This document shows positions 4,749 through 24,140 of a stretch of 64,000 nucleotides of DNA, in pieces (position 1 is the stretch's first letter; each line of letters begins with the position of its first letter). Origin of the DNA: Glycomyces albidus (GTDB lineage Bacteria > Actinomycetota > Actinomycetes > Mycobacteriales > Micromonosporaceae); the NCBI RefSeq assembly GCF_009451885.1, contig NZ_WIAO01000017.1, positions 1 through 64,000 on the forward strand, given 5' to 3'. The position numbers and the translations under genes were made by a program. The notes beneath the pieces are model-generated. The model did not search any database. It was not told the origin of the DNA and saw nothing but the letters and a program-made list of their open reading frames with translations.

Positions 4749-4877
4749 CGGGTGACACTGCGGCTGCGGGGGACGGTTCCTGTCGGACCCGGCCGGGAGG
4801 ATCGCACTATCTTCCCCGGGGTGGGTGGGGGCTGGGGATGGAACCACTACTAGCCCACCCGCCCGCCCTGCGGGCGG
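4749..4877 (+). repeat. Dispersed G-quadruplex/hairpin element, copy A (upstream of pabC)
   Basis: Shares long blocks with copies at 15877 and 24009: CTGTCGGACCC, AGGATCGCACTATC, then GGGG-T-GGG-T-GGGGG-CT-GGGG, which fits a G-quadruplex with one-base loops (4818-4836). GGTGGGTGGG (4820-4829) can instead pair with CCCACCCGCC (4854-4863), one G-U pair included. A second hairpin CCGCCC-TGC-GGGCGG (4863-4877) follows directly. It ends 150 bases before pabC and starts 112 bases before the divergent fur gene. Confidence 0.85.
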
Positions 4878-5026
4878 CCAACGTTCCCGCCCTTCCGCCG
4901 CGGGCGACTCCGGCCCGCGGCCCGGTTCCCGACCCGCCGTCCCCTTCCCCGGCCCTCCGCCCGGCGGAGCCGGCGCCGCGCGCACGCACCGCCGGTTCCG
5001 GTCGCGGCGGGGAGCACAATGAGCGC

Positions 5027-5881
5027 ATGGCACTAGTAACCGCAGTACTGCACCGCGGCGTCGTCGACTCCGACGCGCCGCTCCTGTGCGCCGACGACCT
5101 CGGGGTCCTCCGCGGCGACGGCGTCTTCGAGACGATCAACGTCCGCGGCGGCGCGGCGTTCCTGCTCTCGGAGCACCTCGACCGCATGGCGAACTCGGCC
5201 CGGCGCATGGAGTTCGAGCTGCCGCCGAAGGCCGAGCTCGCCGAACTCGCCGAGCAGGCCCTCGAGGCGTGGCGCGACCGCGCCGAAGGCGAGGGCGCGC
5301 TCCGCCTGGTCGCCACCCGCGGCCGCGAGCACGGCGGCCCGCCCACCGTCTACGCGACGGTCGACCCCGTCCCGCGCGAGCGCATCCTGCCGCGCCGGGA
5401 CGGCCTGCGGATCGCCACGGCGACCTTGGGGGTGAATGCCGATGCGCGGGGCGACGCCCCGTGGCTTCTAGGCGGGGTCAAGGCACTCTCGTACGCCTCG
5501 ATGATGGCGGTGACGCGCTGGGCGAAGTCCCAGGGAGCGGACGACGCCCTGTGGGTCTCGGCCGACGGTTTCGCCCTGGAGGGCCCGACCTCGTCGCTGC
5601 TGTGGCTCGAAGGCGACACGCTCTGCACGACGCCGACGTCGGCGGGGATCCTGCCGGGGACCACGAGCGCGTACCTGCTGGAGCAGGCCCCGAAGGCGGG
5701 CCTGAAGACCGCGGAGAAGCTGATCCCGGTGGGGGACTTGAAGAACGCGGAGGCGGCGTGGCTCAGCTCCTCCGTCCGAGGTGTGGCCTTCATCACTCAG
5801 ATCGACGGCGAGGCGGTCGCGCAGCGACCCGACATCACGGCTGAGCTGGACAAACTCGCCGGATTCGAAGTGCCTTCGTAA
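5027..5881 (+). CDS. pabC: Aminodeoxychorismate lyase / class IV aminotransferase (PabC-like)
   Basis: A PLP enzyme of the fold-type IV aminotransferases; the best guess is 4-amino-4-deoxychorismate lyase, which releases pyruvate to make p-aminobenzoate for folate. The 284 residues include DDLGVLRGDGVFETI near the N-terminus, the Schiff-base lysine K152 in GGVKALSYASMM, and the cofactor-binding EGPTSSLLW and GILPGTTS blocks. ATG 5027 is 13 bases after GGGGAG. D-amino-acid or branched-chain aminotransferase activity is a real alternative since these families overlap. pabA/pabB are not in the window. The dispersed G-rich element lies 150 bases upstream. Confidence 0.78.
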   Translation: MALVTAVLHRGVVDSDAPLLCADDLGVLRGDGVFETINVRGGAAFLLSEHLDRMANSARRMEFELPPKAELAELAEQALEAWRDRAEGEGALRLVATRGREHGGPPTVYATVDPVPRERILPRRDGLRIATATLGVNADARGDAPWLLGGVKALSYASMMAVTRWAKSQGADDALWVSADGFALEGPTSSLLWLEGDTLCTTPTSAGILPGTTSAYLLEQAPKAGLKTAEKLIPVGDLKNAEAAWLSSSVRGVAFITQIDGEAVAQRPDITAELDKLAGFEVPS

Positions 5882-6078
5882 CGGTTGAATATCGTTTCCC
5901 AGGTTCTTCCCAGGCTCGCCACAGGCTCCGCTCAGAGACGGTCCTCATAGTAATGAGTGTTCCGGTCACGCCGACAAGCCAAGCGGATGGACATGGGCAG
6001 TCTTCCGGGAGGCACGGAACAATCCGGGGGCACAAAGCCGGTAAGGGTAATCGGGCACAGCCCTACCGGTGCCAATGA

Positions 6079-6136
6079 AAAGTGGAGCTCCTCCACTTTA
6101 TCGGGGCCGCAGCGAATGGGCAAGCGCTGCGGCCCC
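6079..6136. terminator. Two-hairpin bidirectional terminator
   Basis: Between convergent pabC and the FAD oxidase. AAAGTGGAG (6079-6087) pairs with CTCCACTTT (6091-6099) around CTC. GGGGCCGCAGCG (6103-6114) pairs perfectly with CGCTGCGGCCCC (6125-6136). The first hairpin has flanking A and T bases on both strands. The remaining intergenic DNA (5882-6078, 6137-6217) shows no gene I can support. Confidence 0.75.
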
Positions 6137-6217
6137 ATTACTCTGTCACAGGATTGACACGAAACCGTATCGGCGCCAGTCACATCGCGGTACTGCCAGC
6201 GAAGACGCCGGCCCCTT

Positions 6218-7588
6218 TCAGCCGAGGACCTTCCCCGGATTGAGGATGCCGAGCGGGTCGAGCGCGGCTTTCAGCCGCCGCTGCACCGCCAGATTCACCG
6301 GGTCGAGCTCCCTTGCGAGCCAATCGCGCTTGAGCATTCCCACCCCGTGCTCGCCGGTGATGGTGCCGCCCATGGCGAGCGCCATGTCGAGGATCTCGTC
6401 GAACGCGGCCCGGCCCGCCGCCAGCGACGCCGGATCCTCGGGGTGGACGATGATGTTCGGGTGGAGGTTCCCGTCCCCGGCGTGCGCGATCACGCCGATG
6501 ACGACGCCGTGCCGATCCGCCGCGGCCTGCACGCCGTCGAGGGCCTCGGCGAGCCGCGCGCGCGGCACCGCGACGTCGTCCACCAGGACCGTCCCCAGCT
6601 TCTCCATGGCGTGGAACGCGTTCCGCCGCGATTCGAGCAGCGCGTCGGCCTCCTCGGCGTCGGTCGCCCGGTACACCTCGGTCGCCCCCGCCTCCGTGCA
6701 CAGCGCCTCGATCGCGACGAGCTCGCGCTCCGGATCGGTGTCGGCGGCGACCAGCAGCAGCGCGGCCGCTTCGGTCGGGAGCCCCATGGGGCGCAACGCC
6801 TCCAGGGCCCGCAGGTGCACGTTGTCGATGAGTTCGAGCAGGCTCGGCTCCCGGCCGGCGGCCATGATCGCGGTGACCGCGCGGCCGGCGTCGGCCGTCG
6901 TGGCGAAGACCGCGGCGAGCGTGAGCCGCTGCGCCGGAACCGGTGAGAGCCGCACCGTCGCCTCGGTGATGATCCCGAGGGTCCCTTCGGAACCGCAGAA
7001 CAGCCGCACCAGGTCGTACCCGGCGACGCCCTTCGCGGTCCGGCGGCCGCAGCGCATGACCTCGCCCGAGGCGAGCACCACCTCGAGGCCGAGCACATAC
7101 TCAGGGGTCGTGCCGTACTTGACGCAGCACATGCCGCCCGCGGCCGTGGCGATGTTCCCGCCGATCGTCGAGATCTGCCACGAGCCCGGGTCTGGGCTGT
7201 ACCGAAGCCCGAACTCCTTGGCGGCCGCGGAGATCGCGGCGTTGAGGACCCCGGGCTGGACCACCGCGAGCCGGTCGACCGGGTCGATCGCGATGATCCG
7301 GTCCATGCCCGACACGTCGAGCAGGAGCGCGCCGTCGACGGCGGTCGCCGCGCCGGCGAGCCCGGTCCGGGCCCCCTGCGGCACCACCGGGACCGCGAGC
7401 TCCGCGGCGACCCGCACCGCCGCGGACACCTCCTCGGTCGAGCGGGCCCGCACCAGTGCGGCCGCCCGGCCGGGCGGCACGAGCCCGGCGTGGTCGACCG
7501 AGTGGGCGGCCAGCACGTCCGGGTCGGTGACGGGGTCCAGGCCCGCCTCGGTCAGGGCGGCGGTGAGGGCGCCTGCGAGTTCGCTCAT
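6218..7588 (-). CDS. FAD-linked oxidase (GlcD/D-lactate dehydrogenase type)
   Basis: A 456-residue flavoprotein of the vanillyl-alcohol-oxidase fold, resembling glycolate oxidase subunit GlcD and FAD-dependent D-lactate/D-2-hydroxyacid dehydrogenases. The FAD-binding segment reads VVPQGARTGLAGAATAVDGA (about 89-108); the C-terminal FAD-oxidase domain has HAGDGNLHPN and ITGEHGVGMLKR. GlcE and GlcF partners are absent, which favours a stand-alone 2-hydroxyacid dehydrogenase. ATG 7588 lies six bases after GACAAT (7600-7595), so leaderless transcription is possible even though the upstream same-strand gene ends only 30 bases away. The exact substrate is not shown by sequence. Confidence 0.85.
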   Translation of the reverse strand: MSELAGALTAALTEAGLDPVTDPDVLAAHSVDHAGLVPPGRAAALVRARSTEEVSAAVRVAAELAVPVVPQGARTGLAGAATAVDGALLLDVSGMDRIIAIDPVDRLAVVQPGVLNAAISAAAKEFGLRYSPDPGSWQISTIGGNIATAAGGMCCVKYGTTPEYVLGLEVVLASGEVMRCGRRTAKGVAGYDLVRLFCGSEGTLGIITEATVRLSPVPAQRLTLAAVFATTADAGRAVTAIMAAGREPSLLELIDNVHLRALEALRPMGLPTEAAALLLVAADTDPERELVAIEALCTEAGATEVYRATDAEEADALLESRRNAFHAMEKLGTVLVDDVAVPRARLAEALDGVQAAADRHGVVIGVIAHAGDGNLHPNIIVHPEDPASLAAGRAAFDEILDMALAMGGTITGEHGVGMLKRDWLARELDPVNLAVQRRLKAALDPLGILNPGKVLG

Positions 7589-7618
7589 GGAGCGATTGTC
7601 ACCCGCGCCCCACGCGTC

Positions 7619-8590
7619 CTAGGCGTACGGGTCGGTGTCGACGATCCCGCGGATGATCTCGGCGAGCGCCTCGACCCGCTCGATGCCCTCCTCGTGGGAG
7701 GCCGAACCGCCGGTGAGGATCGCGATCTCGATCGGGTGGTCGGTGTCCCCGGCGATCACGCCGATGGAGTTGACGACCCACTCGCCGCCCATGGCGTCGC
7801 GGGTGTCCCAGCCGTTCTTCATCCACACGGTCTCGCCGTCGGCGGCCGCGGCCGAGACGCCCCACTGCTGGGAGTCGGAGAGGTCGCCCATGAGCGAGCG
7901 CGCGTACTCGGTCTGCTCGGCGTCGAGGAAGCCCGTCTCCTCGTACAGGGCGATCTCGAGCACCCGGAGCTGGTCGATCGCGGTGGTCTGGGTCTTGCCC
8001 CACTGCTCGGTCTCGTTCGGGTTGGTGTTCTCCAGCCCGAAGTCGATGTGCGCCTGCCTGATCGCGGCGTGGCCGTCGTCGAAGGTCCCGCCGTAGAGGA
8101 CGTCGTTCGTCGCGTCGTTGCTGGAGTCCTGGATCATCTCCGCGGCCCGGTCGAGCAGCCAGTCCGGGACCTGGTCGAGGGTGCCGTACTCCTCGAGCAT
8201 CATCGCGAGGATCTCGACCTTCACGATCGACGCCGTGTCGTACTGGGTCTCGCCCTCGTAGTCGAGGAGGAACTCGCCGTCGTCCACGGCGACCGACGCG
8301 TAGAAGTTCTCGTCGTCCTCTTCCTCGATGTACGCGGCGACGGCCTCGTCGAGCGCGGACTGGAGCTGCGCCTGGGCGGCCTCGCGCAGCTCCTCCTCGG
8401 ACGGCTGGAGCGAGGAGCTCGACAGGTCGTCGGCCTGGGAGCCGGGGAGGCTCTCGTCGGAGGACCCACCCGAGCCGCCGTCGTCCCGGCCCGTGCTGAC
8501 GACGAAGATCACCGCCGCGACGATGACGGCGAGTCCGGGGACGGCGAGGTAGGGCCAGAGTCGCCGCGAGGTGGAGGGTTGGGAGGTCAC
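7619..8590 (-). CDS. Membrane-anchored beta-lactamase-fold serine hydrolase
   Basis: 323 residues, GTG start. An N-terminal membrane segment (about 12-32, YLAVPGLAVIVAAVIFVV) is followed by an acidic serine-rich linker and then an extracytoplasmic domain of the class A beta-lactamase/penicillin-binding superfamily. Possible active-site motifs are SIVK (S121, K124, SxxK), SSN (156-158, SxN) and KNG in WMKNGW in the place of KTG. The second and third motifs are degenerate, so it may be a carboxypeptidase-like or inactive homologue rather than a resistance enzyme. It is followed by the FAD oxidase on the same strand after 30 bases. Confidence 0.65.
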   Translation of the reverse strand: MTSQPSTSRRLWPYLAVPGLAVIVAAVIFVVSTGRDDGGSGGSSDESLPGSQADDLSSSSLQPSEEELREAAQAQLQSALDEAVAAYIEEEDDENFYASVAVDDGEFLLDYEGETQYDTASIVKVEILAMMLEEYGTLDQVPDWLLDRAAEMIQDSSNDATNDVLYGGTFDDGHAAIRQAHIDFGLENTNPNETEQWGKTQTTAIDQLRVLEIALYEETGFLDAEQTEYARSLMGDLSDSQQWGVSAAAADGETVWMKNGWDTRDAMGGEWVVNSIGVIAGDTDHPIEIAILTGGSASHEEGIERVEALAEIIRGIVDTDPYA

Positions 8591-9391
8591 AGCTTGGAAC
8601 CTGACTCTTCAAAAGGCGGGGTTGTGAACGATTACGCGGCCCACGCTAAAGCAGCCGCCGAAGCGATCACAAGCAGGGTCATCCGGGAGTTCCGTAACGG
8701 TTGCGCATCGGTGCGTACGCGAACCGAACGGACCCTGAACCCCCAATGATCTCTCGCCGCACGGGACACGACCAGCGTCACCCGTCACTCCCGACCCTCC
8801 GGCGCGGCATAGAACCGGACACGGCACGACGAAGCGCCCGCCGCAACGACGGGCGCTTCACGAAGAACCGCTTCGGCTTCCGAGGCCTGGCGACGAGTCG
8901 AATCCGGCGCTCGGCCACGCTCATGCCATGCAATCGGGCAATGCCATCGGGCAATGGTGCTGAGCGGCGCCGCCGAGCCGTGCGGCTCAGCCGACCGTGC
9001 CGTTCAGTGGTGCCGTTCAGTGGTGCTGGTTCCGGTGGGGCCGTGAGGCACTGGTCCGGGCGTTCGGAGTGGGACCTGGGGAGGAATTGACCATCAACGA
9101 GTGCCCGAGCCGCAGTGCCTCACGGAGACTCCACCGTGCCGCGCCTCGACTGCCCTGCGGGCAGTGCGATCGAAGACTGCGCCTTCGAAGGCTCCGGCCG
9201 CCGGGTGCGGCGGACCGGTTCGGGGCCGGTGATACACCGGGCCGCCCGCTGCCGCTCGCGGCGGTTCCGCACCCGTCCGGCCGGCACCCACGGCGACGCT
9301 TGCGCGCCGTAGATCTGCCGGGCCGGAGACTTGTGCACGGAACCCGCCGCGGCGGCCCACTGCGGCGCCGGGGTCTTGAGAGCGACGGCCG
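8591..9391. other. Intergenic stretch of about 800 bases without a supported gene
   Basis: Lies upstream of the minus-strand serine hydrolase and downstream of the minus-strand anchored protein. The only clear structure is a perfect ten-pair hairpin, GAAGCGCCCG (8831-8840) with CGGGCGCTTC (8850-8859), a plausible terminator. A short direct repeat GTGCCGTTCAGTG occurs around 8998-9020. Short open frames on both strands (for example 8609-8827 and 9094-9360, minus) have arginine- and proline-rich products typical of antisense reading in GC-rich DNA, and I do not call them. Confidence 0.6.
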
Positions 9392-10303
9392 TCATGCCGT
9401 CGCTCGCTGCTTGAGGAGGGTGCGCGTCACTGCGGCGGCCACACCGATCAGGCAGATGATCGCGACCAGGGCGAGCAGCCCGTTCGCGCCGTCCCGGACG
9501 GCCTTCGGGTCGACCGCGACGACCTCTTCCTCCGCGACCGGGTCGAAGCCCGCGCCGTCGTCGACGCCCGGCTCGCCGAACGCGTTCACCTCGTCCTCGA
9601 CCGGCGCCTCCGCCTCGTCCTGGGCGGGCTGCTCCGGGTCCGGGCCCTGCTGGGCCGCGGCGTCGTCGCCGGCCGGTCCGTCGCCCTCGGACCCGGCGGC
9701 CGTGTCGCCGTCCCCTTCGCCGTCCTCGTCGGCGGCCGGCAGGTCCTGCACGTCGTCCTCGCCGCCCGATTCGTCCTCGTCGGTCTGCGACTCCACCACG
9801 TGCACCTGCGCCGACCCGTACTCGGCGAACAGGCCGCGGCAGGACGGGACCATGGCGACCTCGGCGGACCGGTTCATCTCGAACACCTGGGTCGAGCCGT
9901 CCGAGATGTCGTAGACCTCGTCGCCCACATGGAGCTGCGCGTTCGTGCCGAGGTCGTTCGTGTACCGCACCTGCGAGCCCGACTCGACGGTCAGCTCCGA
10001 GGCGTCCGGGTTCGAGGAGGCCGACACCAGGCCGAGCGTGCCGCAGTCGCCGCTGAAGACGATCTCGCTGCCGGTGCCCGCCTCCGGCTCCTCCGCCGTG
10101 GCGATGCTCATCCCGGCCGCGCCGCCCGCCGCGATCACCGCGGCGGCCGAGAGCGCCGCCAGCCGCGAACGCCGGCGCTGCGAGCGCCGGTCCATCGCCG
10201 CCTGCGACGCCGGGGGGATCCGGCCGTCGTTCACCGGGTACGGCAGCGGAGGACGCGTCTGGGCCCGGGACTGGCGACCGAGCTTCGTGGTGTGTCTTCC
10301 CAT
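9392..10303 (-). CDS. Secreted/anchored protein of unknown function with C-terminal membrane helix
   Basis: 303 residues from ATG 10303. The N-terminus is basic (DRRSQRRRSR), then a hydrophobic stretch LAALSAAAVIAAGGAAGMSIA acts as signal or anchor. A compact domain (about 75-145) with two cysteines (SGDCGTLG and VPSCRGL) and an ELTVESGSQVRYTNDLGTN segment looks cupredoxin-like but is not identified. A very acidic, low-complexity linker (about 150-260) leads to a C-terminal membrane helix GLLALVAIICLIGVAAAV and a short basic tail. This is the architecture of an actinobacterial surface protein with a disordered stalk. Function unknown. Confidence 0.7.
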   Translation of the reverse strand: MGRHTTKLGRQSRAQTRPPLPYPVNDGRIPPASQAAMDRRSQRRRSRLAALSAAAVIAAGGAAGMSIATAEEPEAGTGSEIVFSGDCGTLGLVSASSNPDASELTVESGSQVRYTNDLGTNAQLHVGDEVYDISDGSTQVFEMNRSAEVAMVPSCRGLFAEYGSAQVHVVESQTDEDESGGEDDVQDLPAADEDGEGDGDTAAGSEGDGPAGDDAAAQQGPDPEQPAQDEAEAPVEDEVNAFGEPGVDDGAGFDPVAEEEVVAVDPKAVRDGANGLLALVAIICLIGVAAAVTRTLLKQRATA

Positions 10304-10516
10304 GCCTGCGTCTCTCCAACCGCGATTTCCGTCGTCTGGGTACGGACCCGATCCACCGCGGGAATCAGGTCTCAACCCCGTTCAACGAACCGGCGGCCGA
10401 AAGGTGACGGCCCCTGCCGCACCCGATTCGTGGACGGTCCTCATGCGCCCGACCACCGGACGGCGACCCTCCGTAGGATGTGCCCTGACAGCACCGAGCG
10501 AGACCGCGGGAACCCC

Positions 10517-12433
10517 ATGGTGATCACCGAGCCCGACTCCACCGAGCCCGACCGTGGCGACGGGCGCGAGCCCGAGGCCGCCGCGACGGCCCCCGAAGGC
10601 GCCGAGCCCGGCGATCAGACCGAGGACGGCACCGACGACCACGAACGCTGGCAGCGCTTCGCGGCCGGCGCCACCCCCGCGCCCGCCGCAGAAGCCCCGC
10701 CGGGGCGGCTCCGCGCCGCAGGCCGCCTCGCCGCGCGCGCCGCCCGCAGCGAATGGACCCTCGCCGCGCTCTTCAGCGCCCTCCTCGCCGTCGGCATGAC
10801 CTGGCCGCTCGCCCGGAACCTGAACCGCGTCATCCCCCACGACCTCGGCGACCCGCTCCTCCAGGCGTACACGCTCGGCTGGCTCTCGGACGCGCTCCGC
10901 ACCGACCCCGCGAGCGTCTGGGGCACCAACAGCTTCTGGCCCGCCCCCGACTCGCTCCTGTTCACCGACACCCTGTTCGGCTACGCCCCCGCCGCGATGT
11001 TCGCCGTCGACGGCCCCAGCACCCTCGTCGTCTACAACGTCCTCTTCATCGCCACGTTCGCCCTCGCCTTCCTCGGCGGGTACGCCCTGCTGCGCCAGCT
11101 CGGCGCCCGGGTCGCCGGATCCGCCGTCGGCGCCGCCGCGTTCGCTTACGCGCCCTGGAAACTCGCGCACCTCGGCCACCTCAACGTGCTCTCCTCGGGT
11201 GCGATCGCGCTCGCGCTGGCGATGCTGGCGCGCGGCCACGGCTGGTCGATGCGCGACGGGTTCAAGCCGGAGCGGCAGCGGCCCGGCTGGATCATCGCGG
11301 GCTGGCTGGTCGCCTTGTGGCAGTTCGCGATCGGCGTCGCCCTCGGCCTCTCGTTCGTGTACGTGATGCTCGCGATCGCCGTCGTGGTCGGCCTGTTCTG
11401 GCTCGTCAAGCGGCCGGCCCTGAACTGGCGCACGGTCGCCGCCGACGGCGCCGGCGGCGTCGTGTTCAGCCTGGGCGTCCTGTGGATCGCCGACCGCCAC
11501 GCGTCGGTGGCGCAGGCGTACCCGGAGACGGTGCGCGACTACGACTACGTCGCCTGGTTCAGCCCCACCTGGCAGAGCTTCATCATCGCGCCGGAGGAGT
11601 CCCGGCTGTGGGGCGCGGCGCACGAGGCCGCCCGCACCGACCTCACCTGGCCGCCCGAGCAGACGCTGCTCGTCGGGTTCACAGTCCTCGCGCTCGCGAT
11701 CGCCGGCCTCATCTGGTCGTCGTGGAGCCGGTGGCAGCGGTGGTGCCTCGCGCTCGGCATCGCAGTCCTCACCGCGCTCGCCATGGGCCCCCACTTCCTC
11801 GACGACGGCCGGTGGGCGTACGGGCTGCTGTACGAGTACGCGCCGGGCTTCGACGCGGTCCGCACGCCGGGCCGGCTCGTCCTCTACATCACGATCCTGC
11901 TGGCGATCCTGGCCGCGGGCACGCTGACGCGCCTGGCCGACGACGCCGACGCGGTCGCCCACGAGTCCAGAGTGGACCGGCGACTCCAGGTGAAGGCGCC
12001 CCGCCGCGTGCACGCGCTGTTCTTCCTGCCCATCGTGTTCGTGCTCGGGGAGGGCCTGATGGTCCCCGAGTTCCACGAGCCCCCGGCCGCTCCCCTCGAT
12101 GTGTCCGAACTGGAGGGACCGGTGATGTTCCTGCCCTCCGACGGCCGCGACACGCAGGTCCAGTTCTGGACGGTGGACGGCTTCGTCGACATGGTCAACG
12201 GCAGCGCCGCGTTCACGCCGGCGGCGACCTCGGAGCTGCGGGAGATGTCGAAGTCCTTCCCCGACGAGTCGGCCATCGCCGACCTCCGCGAGGCGGGCGT
12301 CGAGACGGTCGTGGTGATTCCCGACTGGCTCCCCGGCAGCGATTGGGCCGGCCTCGACACCGAGCAGGAACCGCTGGGCGTCGACGTCGAACGCACCGAC
12401 GACGCGATCATCTACCACTTGAACGCCGAGTAA
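10517..12433 (+). CDS. Polytopic membrane protein, GT-C glycosyltransferase-like
   Basis: About 638 residues. An acidic 50-residue N-terminus precedes roughly ten membrane helices (from EWTLAALFSALLAVGMTWPL to the last near residue 525, VHALFFLPIVFVLGEGLMV), then a C-terminal soluble region of about 100 residues. The first periplasmic loop carries acidic residues (NRVIPHDLGDPL), as in GT-C enzymes that use polyprenyl-linked sugars, so a role in envelope glycosylation is plausible but unproven. The ATG at 10517 has no good ribosome site; a -10-like TAGGAT lies at 10474-10479. It is followed by a structured terminator. Confidence 0.65.
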   Translation: MVITEPDSTEPDRGDGREPEAAATAPEGAEPGDQTEDGTDDHERWQRFAAGATPAPAAEAPPGRLRAAGRLAARAARSEWTLAALFSALLAVGMTWPLARNLNRVIPHDLGDPLLQAYTLGWLSDALRTDPASVWGTNSFWPAPDSLLFTDTLFGYAPAAMFAVDGPSTLVVYNVLFIATFALAFLGGYALLRQLGARVAGSAVGAAAFAYAPWKLAHLGHLNVLSSGAIALALAMLARGHGWSMRDGFKPERQRPGWIIAGWLVALWQFAIGVALGLSFVYVMLAIAVVVGLFWLVKRPALNWRTVAADGAGGVVFSLGVLWIADRHASVAQAYPETVRDYDYVAWFSPTWQSFIIAPEESRLWGAAHEAARTDLTWPPEQTLLVGFTVLALAIAGLIWSSWSRWQRWCLALGIAVLTALAMGPHFLDDGRWAYGLLYEYAPGFDAVRTPGRLVLYITILLAILAAGTLTRLADDADAVAHESRVDRRLQVKAPRRVHALFFLPIVFVLGEGLMVPEFHEPPAAPLDVSELEGPVMFLPSDGRDTQVQFWTVDGFVDMVNGSAAFTPAATSELREMSKSFPDESAIADLREAGVETVVVIPDWLPGSDWAGLDTEQEPLGVDVERTDDAIIYHLNAE

Positions 12434-12454
12434 AACGCATATAAGCGTTATTCC

Positions 12455-12511
12455 GGATATGTCCCCTAAGGGACCCCTGGCGCAAAAATACCCGCCGGGT
12501 CCGACATATCC
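12455..12511. terminator. Bidirectional terminator between convergent genes
   Basis: GGATATGTC (12455-12463) pairs with GACATATCC (12503-12511), and inside it GGACCC (12471-12476) pairs with GGGTCC (12497-12502). The preceding AACGC-ATATAA-GCGTT is a further small hairpin directly after the stop of the membrane protein. Confidence 0.6.
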
Positions 12512-12560
12512 CCTTCCGCGAGCATCACTCGCGCCGCGGACCGGCGCGCCCGAGTGCCGC

Positions 12561-13013
12561 TCAGGCCGGCCCGATCGGGGTCAGGAACGCGAGCGACCCG
12601 ATCGCGTCCAGGCGCGGCGGGGAGTGCAGGGGCGATGCGGTGACGTCGAACGTCCGGTGCCCGCCGCGGTGCTCGATCCGCATGAGCGTGCGCTCCAGTG
12701 CGTCGGTCTGCAGCGCCTGGACGGGCGCGAGCCGCGCCAGCTCCGAGTCGACGAGCGGGTGCGCGCCGGCGGAGAAGTCCAGGAACCGAAGGCCCGCATC
12801 GAGAAAGCGGGGCATGGCGTAGTCGATGTCGGCTCGCAGGCCGAGCACTTGCCTTGTGGCGCGCGAGGTCGCGACGATCCGCGTGTCGGCGGCGAGCAGC
12901 ATGCAGGCGTCGGCGCTCGCCGCGACCGCGCTGCGCCAGGGGGCCAGTGCCGGGTCGAGCCTCCTGCCATCGGGCCCGGGCGCGGAGCCGCGGAGCGGGA
13001 TGACCAGTTCCAT
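12561..13013 (-). CDS. Small PAS-like protein of unknown function
   Basis: 150 residues from ATG 13013 (a TTG three codons earlier is also possible). The core WRSAVAASADACMLLAADTR, then VATSRATRQVLGL, followed by RTFDVTASPLH, resembles a single PAS domain, often a sensor module, but no output domain is attached. It is divergent from arginine deiminase with an intergenic region that holds a promoter-overlapping palindrome, so it could be a cytosolic partner of, or simply co-regulated with, arcA. Function unknown. Confidence 0.6.
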   Translation of the reverse strand: MELVIPLRGSAPGPDGRRLDPALAPWRSAVAASADACMLLAADTRIVATSRATRQVLGLRADIDYAMPRFLDAGLRFLDFSAGAHPLVDSELARLAPVQALQTDALERTLMRIEHRGGHRTFDVTASPLHSPPRLDAIGSLAFLTPIGPA

Positions 13014-13067
13014 TTGCGTCAATTGGGCGTCCCGGGGGTAGTGGTTACGCTCAGTCTGTCCACGTTA

Positions 13068-13107
13068 ACAGAGAAAAGTTGATCTCTGTCCCCGGCGCGT
13101 CTACCCT
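13068..13107 (+). promoter_or_regulatory. arcA promoter overlapped by a palindromic operator
   Basis: TTGATC (13079-13084) and TACCCT (13102-13107) are spaced by exactly 17 bases; transcription would start at or next to the arcA ATG (13114). ACAGAGA (13068-13074) and TCTCTGT (13083-13089) form a perfect inverted repeat that covers the -35 box, the typical place for a repressor. The binding protein is unknown. Confidence 0.65.
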
Positions 13108-13113
13108 CAGGTC

Positions 13114-15741: not shown

Positions 15742-15747
15742 CCGGTC

Positions 15748-15776: not shown

Positions 15777-15876
15777 CCGGTACGCCGAGTGTCACCGATT
15801 ACTGGGCGCGGGACGCGCGCCTCGGAACCGCCCATTCCCTCTTTCGGGGGACAGGGGCGTCTCGGGGCTTCGTTTG

Positions 15877-15973
15877 TGTCGCACCCGCGCGCCAGGATCG
15901 GACTATCTTCCCCGGGGTGGGTGGGGGCTCGGGATGGCAATACCTCTATCCCACCCACCCGCCCTCCGGGCGG
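15877..15973 (+). repeat. Dispersed G-quadruplex/hairpin element, copy B (between purD and purB)
   Basis: Begins TGTCGCACCCG and keeps AGGATCG-ACTATCTTCCCC. Four G-runs with loops T, T and CTC (15914-15932) form a G-quadruplex motif. GGTGGGTGGG (15916-15925) pairs perfectly with CCCACCCACC (15950-15959); then CCGCCC-TCC-GGGCGG (15959-15973). The core GGGATGGCAATA is shared with copy C. It is 280 bases before purB and 136 bases before divergent purD. Confidence 0.85.
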
Positions 15974-16252
15974 CGCACGTGCTGACCGCCTCCTGCCCCG
16001 ACCGCCTCCCGGCACGCAGCGAGGGCGGCGGTCCCACAGCCCCGCGGTGGCCGTGGAGCGCGACTGCCGCGCTGCGCGCGGCGCGACTCCGCATGGAAGC
16101 GGACCCAAGCGGACCCCAGTGCACATGCCCCGCCCGTCCGTCGGTCCCCGTCATTCATGCATGACCGAGAACGCCGGGTCCGTGATGTGAACAGGGCCCG
16201 GACCAGCTGCACTCGTCGTGCATGCGTGAACGCTCGATGCCATCATTGGCGC

Positions 16253-17671
16253 GTGACTGCGAATGTGCTCGCCGAGCGTTACGCCTCCGCGCCGATGCGC
16301 GACATCTGGGACCCCGTCGGGAAGATCAAGGCCGAGCGGCGGCTGTGGCTGGCCGTGCTCCGCGCGCAGCACGACCTCGGCGTCACCGTGCCCGACGGTG
16401 TGATCGCTGACTACGAGCGGGTCCTGGACCAGGTCAACCTGGAGTCCATCGCCGTGCGCGAGCGCGTCACGAAGCACGACGTGAAGGCCCGCATCGAGGA
16501 GTTCTCCGACCTCGCCGGCCACCAGCACATCCACAAGGGCATGACCAGCCGCGACCTCACCGAGAACGTCGAGCAGATGCAGGTCCGCCAGGCTCTCGAG
16601 CTCGTCCGGGACCGGCTCGTGGCCGCGCTCGTGCGCCTCGCCGCCCGCGCCGAGCAGTACCGCGATCTCGTCATGGCCGGGCGCAGCCACAACGTGCCCG
16701 CCCAGGCCACGACCCTCGGGAAGCGCTTCGCGACATGGGCCGAGGAGCTCCTCGCCGCCTACGAGCGCATCGAGGACCTGCTGCGCCGCTACCCGCTGCG
16801 CGGCATCAAGGGCCCGGTCGGCACCGCCCAGGACATGCTCGACCTGTTCGGCGGCGACAACGCGAAGCTCGCCGAGCTCGAGCGCCGCATCGCCGGCCAC
16901 CTCGGGTTCGAGCGGGTCATGGACTCGGTCGGCCAGGTCTACCCGCGCTCGCTCGACTACGAGGTCGGCACCGCGCTCGTGCAGGCCGTGGCGGCGCCGT
17001 CGTCCGCCGCCGTCACGATCCGGCTCATGGCCGGCGCCGAGCTCGCCACCGAAGGGTTCATGCCGGGCCAGGTCGGCTCGTCCGCGATGCCGCACAAGAT
17101 GAACACCCGCTCCTCCGAGCGCGTCAACGGCCTCGCGGTCGTGGCCCGCGGCTACGCGGCGATGCTCGGCGAGCTCGCCGGGGACCAGTGGAACGAAGGG
17201 GACGTCTCGTGCTCGGTGGTCCGGCGCGTCGCCCTCCCGGACCTCTTCTACGCCGTCGACGGGCTCTATGAGACATTCCTCACCATCCTCGACAACTTCG
17301 GCGCGTACCCGGCCGTCATCGGTGCCGAACTCGACCGCTACCTCCCCTTCCTGACGTCCACAAAGGTCCTCATGGAGGCCATCAAGCAGGGCGCCGGCCG
17401 CGAAGACGCGCACGAGGCCATCAAGGAGCACGCCGTCGCCGTGGCCCGCGCCATGCGCGAGGACGGCCAGCGCGGCAACGACCTGTTCGACCGCCTCGCC
17501 GCCGACCCGCGCCTCCCCCTCGACCGGGCCGGCCTCGGCGCGCTCGTCGCGAATACGGGTGAATTCACCGGCGCCGCAGGAGATCAGGTGGACCGTGTCG
17601 CCGAAAGGGTGGCGGAAGCGGCGAAAGCGCACCCCGAAGCGGCCGCCTACCGGCCCGGCGGGATCCTCTGA
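16253..17671 (+). CDS. purB: Adenylosuccinate lyase
   Basis: Cleaves SAICAR to AICAR and adenylosuccinate to AMP, both releasing fumarate. 472 residues from GTG 16253. The superfamily signature GSSAMPHKMNTRSSER is present (about 279-294) with SHNVPAQATTLGKR before it, and TSRDLTEN near residue 100. An upstream ATG in frame at 16157 would add 32 residues of non-family sequence. CATCAT lies six bases before the GTG and may be the -10 box. The gene leads a block that continues with purSQL after about 100 bases. Confidence 0.95.
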   Translation: MTANVLAERYASAPMRDIWDPVGKIKAERRLWLAVLRAQHDLGVTVPDGVIADYERVLDQVNLESIAVRERVTKHDVKARIEEFSDLAGHQHIHKGMTSRDLTENVEQMQVRQALELVRDRLVAALVRLAARAEQYRDLVMAGRSHNVPAQATTLGKRFATWAEELLAAYERIEDLLRRYPLRGIKGPVGTAQDMLDLFGGDNAKLAELERRIAGHLGFERVMDSVGQVYPRSLDYEVGTALVQAVAAPSSAAVTIRLMAGAELATEGFMPGQVGSSAMPHKMNTRSSERVNGLAVVARGYAAMLGELAGDQWNEGDVSCSVVRRVALPDLFYAVDGLYETFLTILDNFGAYPAVIGAELDRYLPFLTSTKVLMEAIKQGAGREDAHEAIKEHAVAVARAMREDGQRGNDLFDRLAADPRLPLDRAGLGALVANTGEFTGAAGDQVDRVAERVAEAAKAHPEAAAYRPGGIL

Positions 17672-17775
17672 CGGGCTGTGACCTGGCACCGTCCCCGTAA
17701 CGCGGCGCTGGCCCAGGTCACTACCGGTGAATATGCTGGTCCTGTCCCGTCCATGTGACCGACAGGAGTGCGACC

Positions 17776-18036
17776 GTGGCCCGTGTAGTGGTCGACGTGA
17801 TGCTGAAGTCCGAAATCCTCGACCCCCAGGGCGAGGCCGTCCTCGGGGCGCTGCCCCGCCTCGGCGTCACCGATGTGGCGTCGGTGCGGATCGGCAAGCG
17901 CGTCGAGATCGAGTTCGACGAGAACGCCCAGAACGTCGAGGAGCAGTCGCGTGTCATCGCCGACCAGCTCCTGGCCAACCCCGTCATCGAGAGCTTCACC
18001 GTCTCGGTGCAGCCCGACGCCGTCGAGGCGGCATGA
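17776..18036 (+). CDS. purS: FGAM synthetase subunit PurS
   Basis: Small 86-residue subunit that joins PurQ and PurL in the three-part phosphoribosylformylglycinamidine synthetase. Typical motifs are [15 protein letters not shown] and [12 protein letters not shown] 17776 follows AGGAG (17764-17768) by seven bases. It overlaps purQ by four bases (ATGA). Confidence 0.95.
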
Positions 18037-18716
18037 GCGCGCGCATCGGGATCGTCACGTTCCCCGGCTCGCTCGACGACCGGGACGCCGCCCGCGCGGC
18101 GTACCTGGCCGGCGCCGAACCGGTCGCCCTGTGGCACGACGACGCCCACATCCACGGGGTCGACGCCGTCTACCTGCCCGGCGGGTTCTCCTACGGCGAT
18201 GCGCTGCGCTGCGGCGCGATCGCCCGCTTCAGCCAGGTGATGGAGACCGTGAAGGCCGCCGCCGCCCAGGGGATGCCCGTCCTCGGCGTCTGCAACGGCT
18301 TCCAGGTCCTGTGCGAGTCGCACCTGCTGCCCGGCGCGCTCGTGCGCAACGCGCACCTGCGCTACCGCAACCGCCCCGCGCGCCTGCGCGTCGAGACCAC
18401 CCGGACCGCGTGGACGAACGCGTACGCGCCGGACGCCGAGGTCGTCATGCCCGCCAAGCACGGCGAGGGCCGGTACGTCGCCGACGAGGCGACCCTCGAC
18501 GCGCTCGAGCAGAACGGCCGGGTCGTCTTCCGGTACCTCGACAACCCGAACGGGTCGATGCGCGACATCGCCGGGATCGCGAACGAGGCCGGGAACGTCG
18601 TCGGCCTCATGCCCCACCCCGAGCACGCCGTCGAGGCGCTCACCGGGCCGTCGACCGACGGCCTCGGCATGATCGCCTCCGTCCTGGCCCACCTCAGCGA
18701 GGGAGCGAGACGATGA
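18033..18716 (+). CDS. purQ: FGAM synthetase glutaminase subunit PurQ
   Basis: Class I glutamine amidotransferase (227 residues) that supplies ammonia to PurL. The catalytic cysteine lies in [14 protein letters not shown] and the His-Glu pair in MPHPEHAVE. The start is fixed by ATGA overlap with purS, and the end overlaps purL in the same way, so the three subunits are translationally coupled in an equimolar arrangement. Confidence 0.96.
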
Positions 18717-20989
18717 ACCAGCTCAACGTCGCCGTGGACACCGTCGGCGTCGCCGACGCGACCCCGGACGAGAAGCAGCCCTGGGCCGAACTGGGCCTCA
18801 AAGAGGACGAGTACCAGCGGATCCGCGAGATCCTCGGCCGCCGCCCCACCCAGTCCGAGCTCGCCATGTACTCGATCATGTGGTCGGAGCACTGCTCGTA
18901 CAAGTCGAGCAGGGTGCACCTGCGGCAATTCGGCGAGAAGAACCCGCGGACCCCGCGCCTCCTGGCCGGGATCGGCGAGAACGCCGGCGTCGTCGCCATC
19001 GATGACAACATCGCCGTCACGTTCAAGGTCGAGTCGCACAACCACCCGTCGTACGTCGAGCCCAAGCAGGGCGCGGCCACCGGCGTCGGCGGCATCATCC
19101 GCGACATCATCGCGATGGGCGCCCGCCCGATCGCCGTCATGGACTCGCTGCGGTTCGGCGCCATCGACCACCCCGACACCGCCCGGGTCCTCCCGGGCGT
19201 CGTCGACGGCATCGGCCACTACGGCAACTGCGTGGGCCTGCCGAACATCGGCGGCGAGACCTTCTTCGACCCGTGCTACCAGGGCAACCCGCTCGTCAAC
19301 GCGCTCAGCGTCGGCGTCATGCCCCGCTCGCGCCTCCAGTCGATGCAGGCCAGCGGCACCGGGAACATCGTGATCCTGCTGGGCGCCAAGACCGGCCGCG
19401 ACGGCATCGGCGGCGTGTCCGTTCTCGCCTCCGCGACGTTCTCGGAGTCCGGCGAGGACGACGCCCGCCCGTCCGTCCAGGTCGGCGACCCGTTCACCGA
19501 GAAGCTCCTCATCGAGGTGTGCCTCGAGCTGTTCGACGCCGGACTCGTCGTCGGCGTCCAGGACCTCGGCGGCGCCGGCCTCACCTGCGCGCTCTCGGAG
19601 ACCGCGGCCGCCGGCGACGGCGGCATGCACGTCGACCTCGAACTGGTCCCGCTGCGCGCCAAGGGCATGGAACCGCACGACATCCTCGCGTCCGAGTCGC
19701 AGGAGCGGATGCTCCTCATCGTCGACCCGGCCAAGGCCGACGAGGTCCTCGCCCGCGCCCGCCGCTGGGGCCTGCTCGCCACCGCGATCGGCACCGTCAC
19801 CGACACCGGCCGCCTCGTCGTGGACTTCCACGGCCAGACCGTCGTCGACGTCCCGCCGAAGTCGCTCGCCGACGAGGGCCCGGTCTACCACCGGCCCATC
19901 GCCGAACCGAACGACCTCGCGCTCATCGCGGTCGACCGCGCCGAGACCCTGCCGCGCCCGACCACCGACGAGGAGATCCGCCAGACCGTCCTCGACATGG
20001 CCGCCAGCCCGAACCTGTGCGACAAGTCGTGGATCACCGAGCAGTACGACTCGTCGGTGTTCGGCAACACGGTCCTCGGCGCCCCGCACGACGCCGGCGT
20101 GGTCCGCCTCGACGAGCGCACCGGCGTCGGCATCGCGATCTCCCTCGACGGCAACGGCCGCTTCGCGCGGCTCGACCCGTACCACGGGGCGCAGCTCGCG
20201 CTGGCCGAGGCGTACCGGAACGTCGCCGTCACCGGCGCCACCCCGATCGCCGTCTCCGACTGCCTGAACTTCGGCTCCCCCGAGGACCCGCACGTGATGT
20301 GGCAGTTCGAGCGGGCCGTGACGGGCATCGCGGACGGATGCCAGAAGCTCGGCATCCCGGTCACCGGCGGCAACGTCTCGTTCTACAACCAGACCGGCCG
20401 CGAAGCGATCCACCCGACGCCCGTCATCGGCGTGCTCGGCGTGCTCGAGGACGTCGCCCGCCGCATCCCGCTCGGGCTCGGCCGCACCGGCGACACCATC
20501 GCGCTCATCGGCACCACCGGCGAGGAGCTCTCGGGCTCGGAGTGGGCCGCGGTCAAGCACGGCCACCTCGGCGGCGTCCCGCCGAAGGTCGACCTCGACC
20601 ACGAGATGAAACTCGCCGACCTGCTCTCGCGGCTCGCCGAGACCGAGCAGCTCGCCGCGGCGCACGACCTCTCCGAGGGCGGGCTCGCGCAGGCGCTGGT
20701 CGAGGCGATCAGCCACTCGGGCATGGGTGCGCAGATCCTCCTCCCGGAGGGCGCGGACCCGTTCACGTACCTGTTCTCGGAGTCCTCGGGCCGGGTCCTC
20801 GTCGTCATCCCGCGCGGCCAGGAGCTCGCGGTGCGCAGCGCCTGCGAGTCCCGCGGCCTGCCGATCACGCCGCTGGGCGTGACCGACGCGAACACCGACG
20901 GCCTGCACCTGCGCGACCACTTCGACATCTCCCGCGCCGAGATCGACGCGGCCTGGAAGGGCCGCATCGGAGCCCGGCTCGGCGAGTAG
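18713..20989 (+). CDS. purL: FGAM synthetase large subunit PurL
   Basis: ATP-dependent synthetase subunit of the small (PurSQL) type, 758 residues. Converts formylglycinamide ribotide to the amidine with ammonia from PurQ. Seen: [12 protein letters not shown] near residue 55, [27 protein letters not shown], and a duplicated AIR-synthase-like fold with [14 protein letters not shown] and a second [11 protein letters not shown] half. The frame ends before a strong terminator. Confidence 0.97.
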
Positions 20990-21009
20990 CCGCGCACCGC
21001 ACGACCAGA

Positions 21010-21042
21010 CGATCGCCCCGGCGCACCGCGCCGGGGCGATCG
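21010..21042. terminator. Terminator of the purSQL operon
   Basis: CGATCGCCCCGGCG (21010-21023) pairs perfectly with CGCCGGGGCGATCG (21029-21042) around CACCG; fourteen pairs, no T-run, common in GC-rich actinomycetes. Confidence 0.8.
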
Positions 21043-21085
21043 CCGTCGCGGCGCACGCCGAACGTCCGGCACCGGCCGGGGATGG

Positions 21086-21304
21086 ACCCCCGGTTTCGAC
21101 GCCAGCGCGGAGCACCTGAAGGGGAGCTGAAGCAGCGCACGCCGACTGCACTGAGGCCGACTGGGTGAGGGCCCCCGGTCTCGAACGTACCTGGGGACAC
21201 CTGAAGGGGAGCTGAAGCAGCGCACGCCGACAGCGTCGAAGCCGGCCGGGAAAGGGCCCCCGGTCTCGAACGTACCCGGGGACACCTGAAGGGGAGCTGA
21301 AGCG
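21086..21304. repeat. 85-bp tandem repeat, about 2.6 copies
   Basis: CACCTGAAGGGGAGCTGAAGC starts at 21113, 21198 and 21283, and CCCCCGGT at 21087, 21172 and 21257, all with a period of exactly 85 bases. Copies 2 and 3 are nearly identical. The array ends four bases before the stop of the minus-strand SCP-like gene and sits between two convergent genes, with no open frame conserved across copies. Confidence 0.9.
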
Positions 21305-21308
21305 GCTC

Positions 21309-21683
21309 CTATGCCTCGGCTTCACCGGCGAGGGGTTCGCCGCGGGGGCCGGTGAGCGGGAGTACGTCGGTGAGGTCGGCGCGCTGGCCGGAGGCCGAGA
21401 CGCGGCCGGTGGCGACGGCGTCGGCGAAGGCGAGGCGGCCGGAGGCGAGCTCGACGAACACGACCGGTTGACACTCGATGACGTTCGGCGGCGTGCCGCG
21501 CCGGTGGCGAGGGCCTTCGACGCACTGCACCGCGCCGTACGGCGGCACCCGAACCTCTACGGAGTGACCTGGGGCTTTGGCGGCCAATGCGCGCAGCAGC
21601 TCCCGGACCGCGGCCTTGAGGGTCTCCCGGTCCGGGGCTTCGTCGTTGTCGATCGCCGCGATGGCATCGGCCACAGCATCCAC
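21309..21683 (-). CDS. SCP-2-like small protein (bacterial sterol-carrier family)
   Basis: 124 residues resembling the actinobacterial sterol-carrier-like family that commonly sits between purL and purF in this phylum. Visible: EVRVPPYGAVQCVEGPRHRRGTPPNVIE, with a C-terminal half like the SCP fold (FADAVATGRVSASGQRADL). Its ligand is unknown; sterol binding is not implied. Its position in the purine block is a conserved neighbourhood rather than proof of a purine role. Confidence 0.7.
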   Translation of the reverse strand: MDAVADAIAAIDNDEAPDRETLKAAVRELLRALAAKAPGHSVEVRVPPYGAVQCVEGPRHRRGTPPNVIECQPVVFVELASGRLAFADAVATGRVSASGQRADLTDVLPLTGPRGEPLAGEAEA

Positions 21684-21908
21684 GGAGAGACCTCCCGGTC
21701 ACGTTAGACTGCCCGTTACGGCACGTTGCCGAACGGCGATGACCGCCGCCGAACGATCGCCCGCGGCACCGCCCGCACCCCGGTCCCGTAACCGAAATGA
21801 GACCAGGCATAGTGGCGACGACGGCCCGCTTCCGTGGGTTCGTCGTGCCTGCCCGCTGCGGACCGCCGCGGACCGGGCCTGAAAGCACATGCCCAGGAGG
21901 GGATGTAG

Positions 21909-23930
21909 ATGACCGTAGCGGCCGAACCGAGCGGGACCCAGAGTAACGTCCCGCGGTCCCGGCGCAGGCGAGGGGGTGGCCTGCGCGCGCGCCTGGCCGG
22001 CCTCGCCGCGGCGGGCGGCGTCCTGCTGCTCGGAGTCCTCGCCTTCCCGCAGGCCGCGATGGCCCAGGGGCAGTTCACGGCGGCGATCAACAACCCGAAC
22101 CCGTACATCGACATCGGCGGCGCCCCCGCGGCCGTGTCGGTGACGCTGAGCGCGGCGCACCAGGACCCGATGGGCAAGGACGCCGACGTCTCCGCGGAGC
22201 TCGGCGGGATCGGCGACTACGCCTACATCACGATCCAGGACGGCGGCGGCTGCACCGTCACCGGCGACGCCTCCGTCAAATGCGAGGACGTCCCCATGGG
22301 ACAGTCCCGCACGATCACCTTCCTGATCAACCCCTACCCCGACTCCGACCTGCCCGAGGGCCAGCAGGAGATGGGCGAGTTCAAGGTCCGGTACAACGGC
22401 GGCGACACCTCCACGAACGTCACCGTCATGGGCCACGCCCAGAACGCGATCAGCCAGATCAGCGGCAAGGTCACCTCGAACGGCGAACCCGTCGCCGGCG
22501 CGAGCGTCGTCCTCGAGGACGGCGAGGGCAACGAGCACGAGACCGAGACCGGCGACGACGGCGGCTTCGCCATCACCGGCGACGGCAACCCGATCGCGCC
22601 CGGCGACATGACCATGACCATCTCGAAAGAGGGCTTCGAGGACAAGGTCGAGGAGTTCAGCGTCGAGTCCGGCGAGTTCACCCGGAACGTGACCCTCGCC
22701 CAGACCGAGACCGAGGAGTCCTCCGCGCCGGCGCCCACGACCGAGGCGGCGCCGAGCTCCGAGGAGCCCGCGAGCGCCGAGCCCGAAGAGGACGGCGGCA
22801 TCTCCGGCACCCTGCTCTTCCTCATCATCATCGGCGCGCTGCTCGTCGTCGGCGGCATCGTCGGCATCGTGTTCCTGCTGCGCGGCGGCAAGGACGACAA
22901 GGACGACGACGGCGAGAGCTTCGCCCCCGACGGCCCGCCCGAGCACCAGCCCACCGCCGCCCAGGTCGGCACGCCCGGCGTCTACCAGGCCGGGCCCGCG
23001 CCCGGTTCGGACGCGCCGACGATGATCCACCCCGGCGGCCTCGTCGACTCCGCCGCCCCGACCCAGTTCGGTCCGGCGTACGGCGGCGACAGCGCCTCCA
23101 CCCAGGTCATGCCGCAGGGCGGCTTCGGCGCCCCGCCCGCACCGGGCCCGGTCGGCCCGGACGGGACCACGATCCTCCCGGTCGTCAAGCAGCCCGGCGG
23201 CCCCGGCGCGTCCGACGCGACGCAGATCATGCCGCAGGCGAACCTGTCGAACCAGCCGCCCGCGGCCCCGCACGGCTCCTTCGGGGCCGACGCGACGCGC
23301 CCGCACCCGTCGCCGACCGGCGCCTTCGGGGCCGACCCGGCCGCGACCCGGCCCCACCCGGGGCCGACGCCCGGCGCGTTCTCCGACCCGAACGCGACCC
23401 GCCCGCACCCGGGGGCCACCCCCGCCGGCGCCTACTCGGACCCGGCCGGACGGCCTTCGCCGAGCCCGTACGGGGACCCCGGCGCCACCCGGCCGCACCC
23501 GGCGCCGACCCCGCCGCCCGCCGGCGGCATGTTCGAGCCGCAGAACCCGGGCATCGCCCCCGGCCCGCCGTCGGAGCCGCGCTACGGCTCCCCGAGCGCG
23601 CCGCCGGCGGGCGCACCGCAGTACGGCCCCGGATCCGCCGGCTTCGGCGGCCCGAGCCAGCCCGGCCAGGGCTACGGCTCGCACAGCGCCCCCGGCGCGC
23701 CCAGTGCGCCGCAGGAGCCGACGGGCTACCAGAGCCAGTCGATGCGCCGCGACCCGTACGCCCCGACCGAGCAGCCGGGCGGCACCCGCCCGATGCCCCA
23801 GTACGGCAGCCAGCCGCGGCCTCCGGCGCCCCACGGCGCCGAACCGGACGCCGACCCCGAGGACCCCGACTCGCGCCGCACCGAGCGCCGCGGCTGGGGC
23901 GAATGGGACGACCGCCCGCGCTCCTGGTAG
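21909..23930 (+). CDS. Secreted-then-anchored protein with carboxypeptidase-regulatory-like domain and proline-rich cytosolic tail
   Basis: 673 residues. ATG 21909 follows GGAGGGG by about seven bases. A basic N-terminus and hydrophobic stretch (about 28-50, ending AAMAQ) form a signal sequence. The extracytoplasmic part (about 52-290) contains a CarboxypepD_reg-like beta domain, ISGKVTSNGEPVAGASVVLED. A single membrane helix (about 297-322, GTLLFLIIIGALLVVGGIVGI) is followed by a 350-residue proline/glycine-rich tail with repeated ATRPHPxPT units and TQVMPQ/TQIMPQ phosphoacceptor-like threonines. Such tails resemble substrates of actinobacterial Ser/Thr kinases with FHA partners, but that is inference. 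Function unknown. Confidence 0.7.
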   Translation: MTVAAEPSGTQSNVPRSRRRRGGGLRARLAGLAAAGGVLLLGVLAFPQAAMAQGQFTAAINNPNPYIDIGGAPAAVSVTLSAAHQDPMGKDADVSAELGGIGDYAYITIQDGGGCTVTGDASVKCEDVPMGQSRTITFLINPYPDSDLPEGQQEMGEFKVRYNGGDTSTNVTVMGHAQNAISQISGKVTSNGEPVAGASVVLEDGEGNEHETETGDDGGFAITGDGNPIAPGDMTMTISKEGFEDKVEEFSVESGEFTRNVTLAQTETEESSAPAPTTEAAPSSEEPASAEPEEDGGISGTLLFLIIIGALLVVGGIVGIVFLLRGGKDDKDDDGESFAPDGPPEHQPTAAQVGTPGVYQAGPAPGSDAPTMIHPGGLVDSAAPTQFGPAYGGDSASTQVMPQGGFGAPPAPGPVGPDGTTILPVVKQPGGPGASDATQIMPQANLSNQPPAAPHGSFGADATRPHPSPTGAFGADPAATRPHPGPTPGAFSDPNATRPHPGATPAGAYSDPAGRPSPSPYGDPGATRPHPAPTPPPAGGMFEPQNPGIAPGPPSEPRYGSPSAPPAGAPQYGPGSAGFGGPSQPGQGYGSHSAPGAPSAPQEPTGYQSQSMRRDPYAPTEQPGGTRPMPQYGSQPRPPAPHGAEPDADPEDPDSRRTERRGWGEWDDRPRSW

Positions 23931-23957
23931 CGGCCGGGCGACGACACGAACGGCACC

Positions 23958-23991
23958 GAACGCCGCCGCGGGCCCGCCCGCGGCGGCGTTC
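23958..23991. terminator. Sixteen-pair terminator hairpin
   Basis: GAACGCCGCCGCGGGC (23958-23973) pairs perfectly with GCCCGCGGCGGCGTTC (23976-23991), directly after the anchored protein. Confidence 0.8.
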
Positions 23992-24008
23992 CGCTGCCTG
24001 TCACGCCT

Positions 24009-24140
24009 CCGGGTGATACGACCGCTGCGGGACCCGGATCCTGTCGGACCCGCGCGGGAGGATCGCACCTACTCTTCCCCGGGTGGGTGGGGGTTCGGGA
24101 TGGCAATAACTCCTGCCCCACCCACCCGCCCTGCGGGCGG
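24009..24140 (+). repeat. Dispersed G-quadruplex/hairpin element, copy C (upstream of purF)
   Basis: Aligns with copy A from CGGGTGA onward and shares CTGTCGGACCC, GGAGGATCGCAC and the GGGATGGCAATA core with copy B. G-runs GGG-T-GGG-T-GGGGG-TTC-GGG (24081-24099). GGTGGGTGGG (24082-24091) pairs with CCCACCCACC (24117-24126); the second hairpin is CCGCCC-TGC-GGGCGG (24126-24140). It ends 233 bases before purF and lies upstream of the purF -10 candidate. Confidence 0.85.

Follow-up and report, generated by a model that had tools for sequence, protein, structure and literature searches.

Upstream of a pabC-like gene, purB and purF, the first 64,000 nucleotides (nt) of Glycomyces albidus contig NZ_WIAO01000017.1 (hereafter the window) contain three G-rich stretches of similar build and the same orientation, and the question raised by this locus is whether they are leaders of folate and purine genes or members of something more general. 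We propose, with moderate confidence, that they are copies of a dispersed, genus-restricted intergenic module, in which a DNA-damage-type promoter-like core is joined to a four-tract G-quadruplex motif within the initially transcribed region. Transcription of the module, its induction and the folding of the quadruplex are predictions made from sequence. Our best guess is that it functions at the level of the transcript or of DNA structure; a neutral repeat is the main rival explanation.

A dispersed repeat family in Glycomyces

The three copies, A (4749-4877), B (15845-15973) and C (24010-24140), are present and mutually alignable, as a sequence-only reading of the window had stated. Using copy C to search the source genome (5.76 Mb, 88 contigs) recovered A at 85% identity (expectation value, E, 5.5e-28) and B at 88% (E 4.4e-27), together with further copies (best E 1.7e-32). 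Each of the three contains GGGTGGGTGGGGG-N-T-N-GGGA, a CCC[A/G]CCC arm starting about 25 bases past the end of GGGTGGGTGGG, and a CCGCCC/GGGCGG hairpin. The anatomy given by the sequence-only reading was thus correct as to its G-quadruplex motif, which is the best-conserved block of the family; it had overlooked many copies and two further parts common to A, B and C, an upstream CGGGTGACA motif and a promoter-like core, TGTCG[G/C]ACCC...GGATCG, and the arm on which it relied proved to be optional. The parts are placed as follows (arms and hairpins by reading and folding; starts predicted from the spacing at start codons):

4749..4757, + strand: copy A, upstream motif CGGGTGACA
4781..4804, + strand: copy A, promoter-like core TGTCGGACCC-N7-A-NNN-T-N-G, predicted start near 4809
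4819..4837, + strand: copy A, G-quadruplex motif
4854..4877, + strand: copy A, C-rich arm CCCACCCGCCC and CCGCCC-TGC-GGGCGG hairpin
15845..15853, + strand: copy B, upstream motif, CGGGGGACA variant
15877..15900, + strand: copy B, promoter-like core, predicted start near 15905
15915..15933, + strand: copy B, G-quadruplex motif
15950..15973, + strand: copy B, C-rich arm and hairpin
24010..24018, + strand: copy C, upstream motif, CGGGTGATA variant
24042..24065, + strand: copy C, promoter-like core, predicted start near 24070
24081..24099, + strand: copy C, G-quadruplex motif
24116..24140, + strand: copy C, C-rich arm and hairpin
44030..44063, + strand: stray arm and hairpin fragment without core or G-quadruplex motif, 34 nt, 88% identity (noticed at 44031 by the sequence-only reading, and real)

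Exact matches to GGGNGGGTGGGGGNTNGGGA numbered 14 in this genome and every one coincided with a family member, compared with none for the reversed pattern; the three copies are therefore beyond chance. A sequence-only model built from 47 copies (match threshold E <= 0.001, at most 150 candidates scored per genome) gave 465 matches across 20 of the 22 Glycomyces genomes, with a range of 0 to 48 per genome, and 26 in G. albidus, of which A, B and C are three. The dispersed repeat that had been named as an alternative to a leader is therefore the right description. Outside the genus, stricter filters applied to 77 genomes from other genera left one weak match (E 1.5e-4). When named genomes were scanned with a pattern, 109 stretches resulted, and each of the 80 among the matches listed is from Glycomyces; the exact pattern was found in 12 of 16 Glycomyces genomes and in none of 134 further genomes from that family (by the tool's grouping). 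Against a phage origin, which we rejected, one exact-G-tract pattern had 0 matches in the viral_contigs collection; collections of phage and plasmid records, and metagenomes, were not searched. Among the matches listed from the open-licence PubMed Central literature, the excerpts contained no description of this repeat or of intergenic repeats in Glycomyces, and nothing on DUF222/13E12 gene remnants, another candidate source. So far, then, the family is a dispersed intergenic repeat restricted to Glycomyces, apart from the one weak match.

The constant part reads, from 5' to 3', TGTCGNACCC-N7-A-NNN-T-N-G, CTA..CCCC and GGGNGGGTGGGGGYTNGGGA; the full order is CGGGTGACA, a variable spacer, the TGTCGNACCC core, CTA..CCCC, GGGNGGGTGGGGGYTNGGGAYGG and a variable tail. 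With up to one mismatch and within 60 nt upstream, the CGGGTGACA motif accompanies 80 of 115 family copies, 0 of 22 core sites at start codons and 1 of 49 other core sites. The CTA lies 5-7 nt past the T of the -10 element in 70 of 113 copies. Tails are of several types: the CCCACCC arm with GGGCGG hairpin seen in the window, GTGACCCACCCTTACTAGGGCGGG, GGCCTTAAGC, or none of these, and the C-rich arm is missing from many copies. We regard the arm and hairpin as a lineage-specific tail that may form the end of a short RNA. Two hybrids (G000:C78:95870-95936 and G000:C12:187157-187217), in which the 5' half of the family is followed by a plain G-run module, suggest that modules have been exchanged between repeat types. 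An inverted repeat formed by CGGGTGACA and TGTCGGACCC suggested that the two might pair as an RNA hairpin, but this was rejected, as T-to-G and T-to-C changes in the alignment were uncompensated by eye.

The promoter-like core and the G-tracts

A census of the core in this genome gave 166 sites at up to one mismatch (family copies counted) versus 9 for the reversed pattern, and its TAnnnT form occurred 5-8 nt before an RTG codon at 22 sites versus 0 for the reversed pattern. Twenty-one of the 22 open a frame of at least 40 amino acids, and the remaining one opens three codons. Of these frames 20 were included in the family scan, one of 81 amino acids being left out. RadA, RecN and UvrB were found behind TAnnnT sites above the curated cut-offs; UvrA and PolA fell below theirs, the queries having been truncated at 501 amino acids, and an AlkZ-like glycosylase and a NUDIX protein were also present. 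For the remaining 13 scanned proteins a role in repair is not obvious: three are glyoxalase-like and three have domains of unknown function, one each is an alpha/beta hydrolase, a methyltransferase and an ABC transporter, and four have no family match or a sub-threshold one. The genome further encodes PafA, a WYL/WCX protein and an HTH_PafC protein, clustered within 6 kb on contig C21. The host thus carries such sites before repair genes, as well as PafBC-like genes. The mycobacterial damage promoter is quoted, in an excerpt, with the consensus tTGTCRgtg-8 nt-TannnT (PMC5656591), and PafBC is said, likewise in an excerpt, to contact a -26 motif (PMC11804915). The repeats resemble this RecA-NDp/PafBC promoter in the TTGTCG block (TGTCG is present in at least 106 of 113 copies, under a filter that allowed only one mismatch) and in the 8-nt gap and the A and T of the -10 element (113 of 115 copies, as the filter itself required). 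Two core sites without a T at -12 (L216, L243) also lie 29 nt before start codons, and the 21 frames behind the damage-type form (L305-L326), three of them glyoxalase-like, look leaderless.

The start codons of the TAnnnT genes stand about 7 nt past the -10 T, and the same offset puts the start of the family near CTAC. The first G-tract begins 17-21 nt past the -10 T in 80 of 112 family copies; the predicted start would thus precede the G-tracts by approximately 12 nt. At exact core sites, a run of at least four G begins 7-9 nt past the -10 T in 34 of 49 (those of 72 such sites in 40 fetched loci; two of the 49 proved to be family members), which is the offset of the start codon at the start-codon sites, and 5.7% of random 16-nt stretches from the same loci contain such a run. 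It is mainly because of this link between core sites and G-runs that we treat the G-rich part as the initially transcribed region.

The four-run motif (runs of at least three G, loops of 1-7) is present in 21 of the 26 model matches in the genome, a set less biased than the copies collected by pattern; of the other five, three have lost a G from the fourth tract and two are the hybrids that end in a plain G-run. Between 57 orthologous pairs, G-tract columns differ in 0-2% of cases, four loop columns in 37-74% and one loop T in 11%. Identity at these shared sites was 0.57 and 0.56 for the flanks, 0.77 for the core and 0.91 for the G-block, against flank baselines of 0.53 for other pairs and 0.51 for shuffled ones; non-orthologous pairs gave 0.73-0.76 for the core and 0.89 for the G-block (400 sampled pairs in each class other than the orthologous one).

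In the mechanism that we envisage, RNA polymerase, probably with a PafBC-like activator, would start transcription shortly before the first G-tract, and the non-template G-strand, together with the 5' end of the RNA, would fold into a quadruplex. This structure may favour an R-loop or an early stop, so that the outcome would be a short noncoding RNA or a local DNA structure, not read-through into the next gene.

Genomic context and competing explanations

The genes downstream of copies A, B and C are, by Pfam, an aminotransferase of class IV (pabC-like, about 150 bases away), an adenylosuccinate lyase (about 280) and a PurF-like amidophosphoribosyltransferase (about 230), in agreement with the sequence-only reading, which had proposed a cis-acting RNA leader switching between a quadruplex and a mutually exclusive hairpin. 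All copies in the window point at these genes, and of 22 species in the genus, 12 have the element at the purD-purB site and 6 in the purF region, always facing the gene; placement is, however, also conserved at unrelated genes. A wider view was obtained from 115 copies with genes called by a codon-usage script, both neighbours being called for 105. Their arrangement was convergent in 43, sense tandem in 23, antisense tandem in 23 and divergent in 16, so that the downstream gene is in sense in just 39 of 105 (11 of 26 in this genome); a single copy of the 115 lies inside a called gene. The neighbours are of varied kinds (dapF-, bcp-, araA- and ABC-transporter-like, judged by eye from protein starts). 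The genome-wide model search and the list of downstream genes that had been recommended as a check thus placed copies beside unrelated genes and gave no general association with purine genes.

The proposed switch fared no better. The arm change of copy A (CCCACCCGCCC) does yield the G-U pair that had been pointed out, and the three copies fold somewhat better than shuffled sequences (z -2.1 for C, -1.8 for B and -2.3 for A). In 29 copies with an arm, however, pairing between the G-strand and the arm leaves loop 1 unpaired in 18 and loop 2 in one, and RNAalifold on 16 such copies found 0 of 24 pairs compensatory, with a covariation term of 0.17. That loop-1 pairing is so often broken and compensatory pairs are absent suggests that the G-tracts themselves are kept, not a helix. 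The arm is, moreover, absent by eye from 5 of the 12 purB copies, and species devoid of the element still have a similar start-proximal sequence at purB (by eye). We thus reject a general purine or folate leader because of mixed orientation, unrelated neighbours and the lack of covariation, and we consider control of pabC, purB and purF by an exclusive quadruplex/hairpin leader extremely improbable.

The 43 convergent arrangements and the strong predicted hairpins would suit a bidirectional terminator or insulator, in which GC-rich hairpins stop transcription from both sides. We judge this quite unlikely: 62 of the 105 copies are not convergent, including the 16 divergent ones, many have no C-arm, and no T-run of the kind expected of an intrinsic terminator follows the hairpin in the three window copies. 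It would also leave the promoter-like core and the four G-tracts unexplained. Convergent gaps hold 30 of 71 copies, while 47 of 246 gaps of at least 120 bases in the same loci are convergent; this excess, in places where insertions should be best tolerated, fits a selfish or relic repeat, MITE-like (miniature inverted-repeat transposable element) or REP-like (repetitive extragenic palindrome), with a promoter-like end by chance and no function for the host. The dispersed, intergenic occurrence in all orientations, copying between sites, local clustering and modular tails are all consistent with such a repeat, and homogenisation by conversion could imitate constraint. On the other hand, copies persist at shared sites whose flanks have diverged nearly to background identity; among the 115 copies, 25 groups occupy one site in different genomes, with homologous genes on both sides, and all 25 keep their orientation, 0 being flipped. 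Terminal inverted repeats or target duplications were not seen by eye in 20 copies placed side by side, transposase genes not having been searched for, and at purD-purB the flanks were too diverged for an empty-site comparison to reveal target duplications. We regard this explanation as rather unlikely and continue to favour the damage-type promoter-like module.

Several findings weigh against the module that we favour. The first base of the -10 element is never T (0 of 113 copies), unlike the published TannnT, and the repeats have NAC where the published consensus has gtg; because of these two differences we call the core promoter-like and do not assign it to the damage promoters, and a core that lacks this T may work poorly as a promoter or not at all. 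Conservation of the core and G-tracts is inflated by ascertainment, because the patterns used to fetch or filter the majority of copies contain these parts. Copying or gene conversion, besides selection, may also keep copies alike. Two copies in genome G020 (L343 and L344), 6 kb apart and in opposite orientation, share an identical stretch of 103 nt between unrelated flanks, which suggests recent copying or gene conversion. In G. albidus, 10 of the 26 copies have another no more than 10 kb away, where simulation gave a mean of 2.2 (p 0.002), a local clustering to which the window copies belong. The purD-purB element is missing in 10 of 22 species, where the gap measures 90-170 bases in nine and 289 in G018. 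In four of the ten (G004, G006, G009 and G013), purB is 90-95% identical to that of element-bearing species. Losses or several gains at this site are suggested, and no single copy can be essential.

Relation to known systems and further observations

Many of the repeats, in a further difference from the RecA-NDp/PafBC promoters, are directed either away from the next gene or into its end, and they lead on into the G-quadruplex motif. A promoter joined to such a motif recalls the pilE G-quadruplex of Neisseria gonorrhoeae, for which an excerpt describes the promoter of a cis-acting noncoding small RNA adjoining or in the motif, and an RNA-DNA hybrid proposed on the C-rich strand (PMC3547852). 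As far as that excerpt goes, pilE is a single locus with a start within the motif, whereas Glycomyces genomes carry up to tens of dispersed copies with a predicted start upstream of the G-tracts. The pilE type is a recombination site with silent copies, where a transcription-dependent quadruplex starts gene conversion; for the Glycomyces repeats an indirect hint of recombination is the 103-nt identity between two copies of one genome. A bolder idea, which we consider unlikely, is that the Glycomyces damage response has a noncoding arm, with tens to more than 100 damage-type promoters per genome, from which transcripts would open with a G-run or a G-quadruplex; induction would then create R-loops or quadruplexes at fixed places and so start repair or gene conversion, as a dispersed analogue of pilE.

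REP and MITE sequences are short, intergenic, multi-copy bacterial repeats, some of which form hairpins. The Glycomyces repeats are likewise short, intergenic and numerous, have no apparent coding capacity and contain hairpins in some copies. They differ in keeping site and orientation across species and in their promoter-like core, and the 20 copies compared by eye showed no terminal inverted repeats or target duplications.

If the proposed module is real, hundreds of noncoding sites across a single genus would join a type of DNA-damage promoter to a conserved G-quadruplex motif. Its natural variants, with or without the arm and with a quadruplex or a plain G-run, would provide a test system for whether transcription through a quadruplex creates programmed structures in the damage response. 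Counts of PafBC-regulon promoter motifs in such genomes would take in many repeats that drive no gene.

An Rfam scan of the window gave one tRNA and no other match reaching its gathering threshold; the three matches at copy C were all below threshold (E 0.68-2.7). Beyond copy A, a FUR-family regulator gene (4197-4637, - strand) is divergent to pabC. The same core also occurs with other downstream modules, CCGGGGGCGCC and CCAGGGGTCCC, in the window at 12483-12506 (- strand) and at L213-L252, and these look like further dispersed families. Tandem core sites at a spacing of about 80-185 nt were seen at L232, L233, L229 and L251. At L072 (approximately 3535-3670), two tandem cores precede a short G-run/C-run hairpin, and the whole runs antisense to the neighbouring genes as called.

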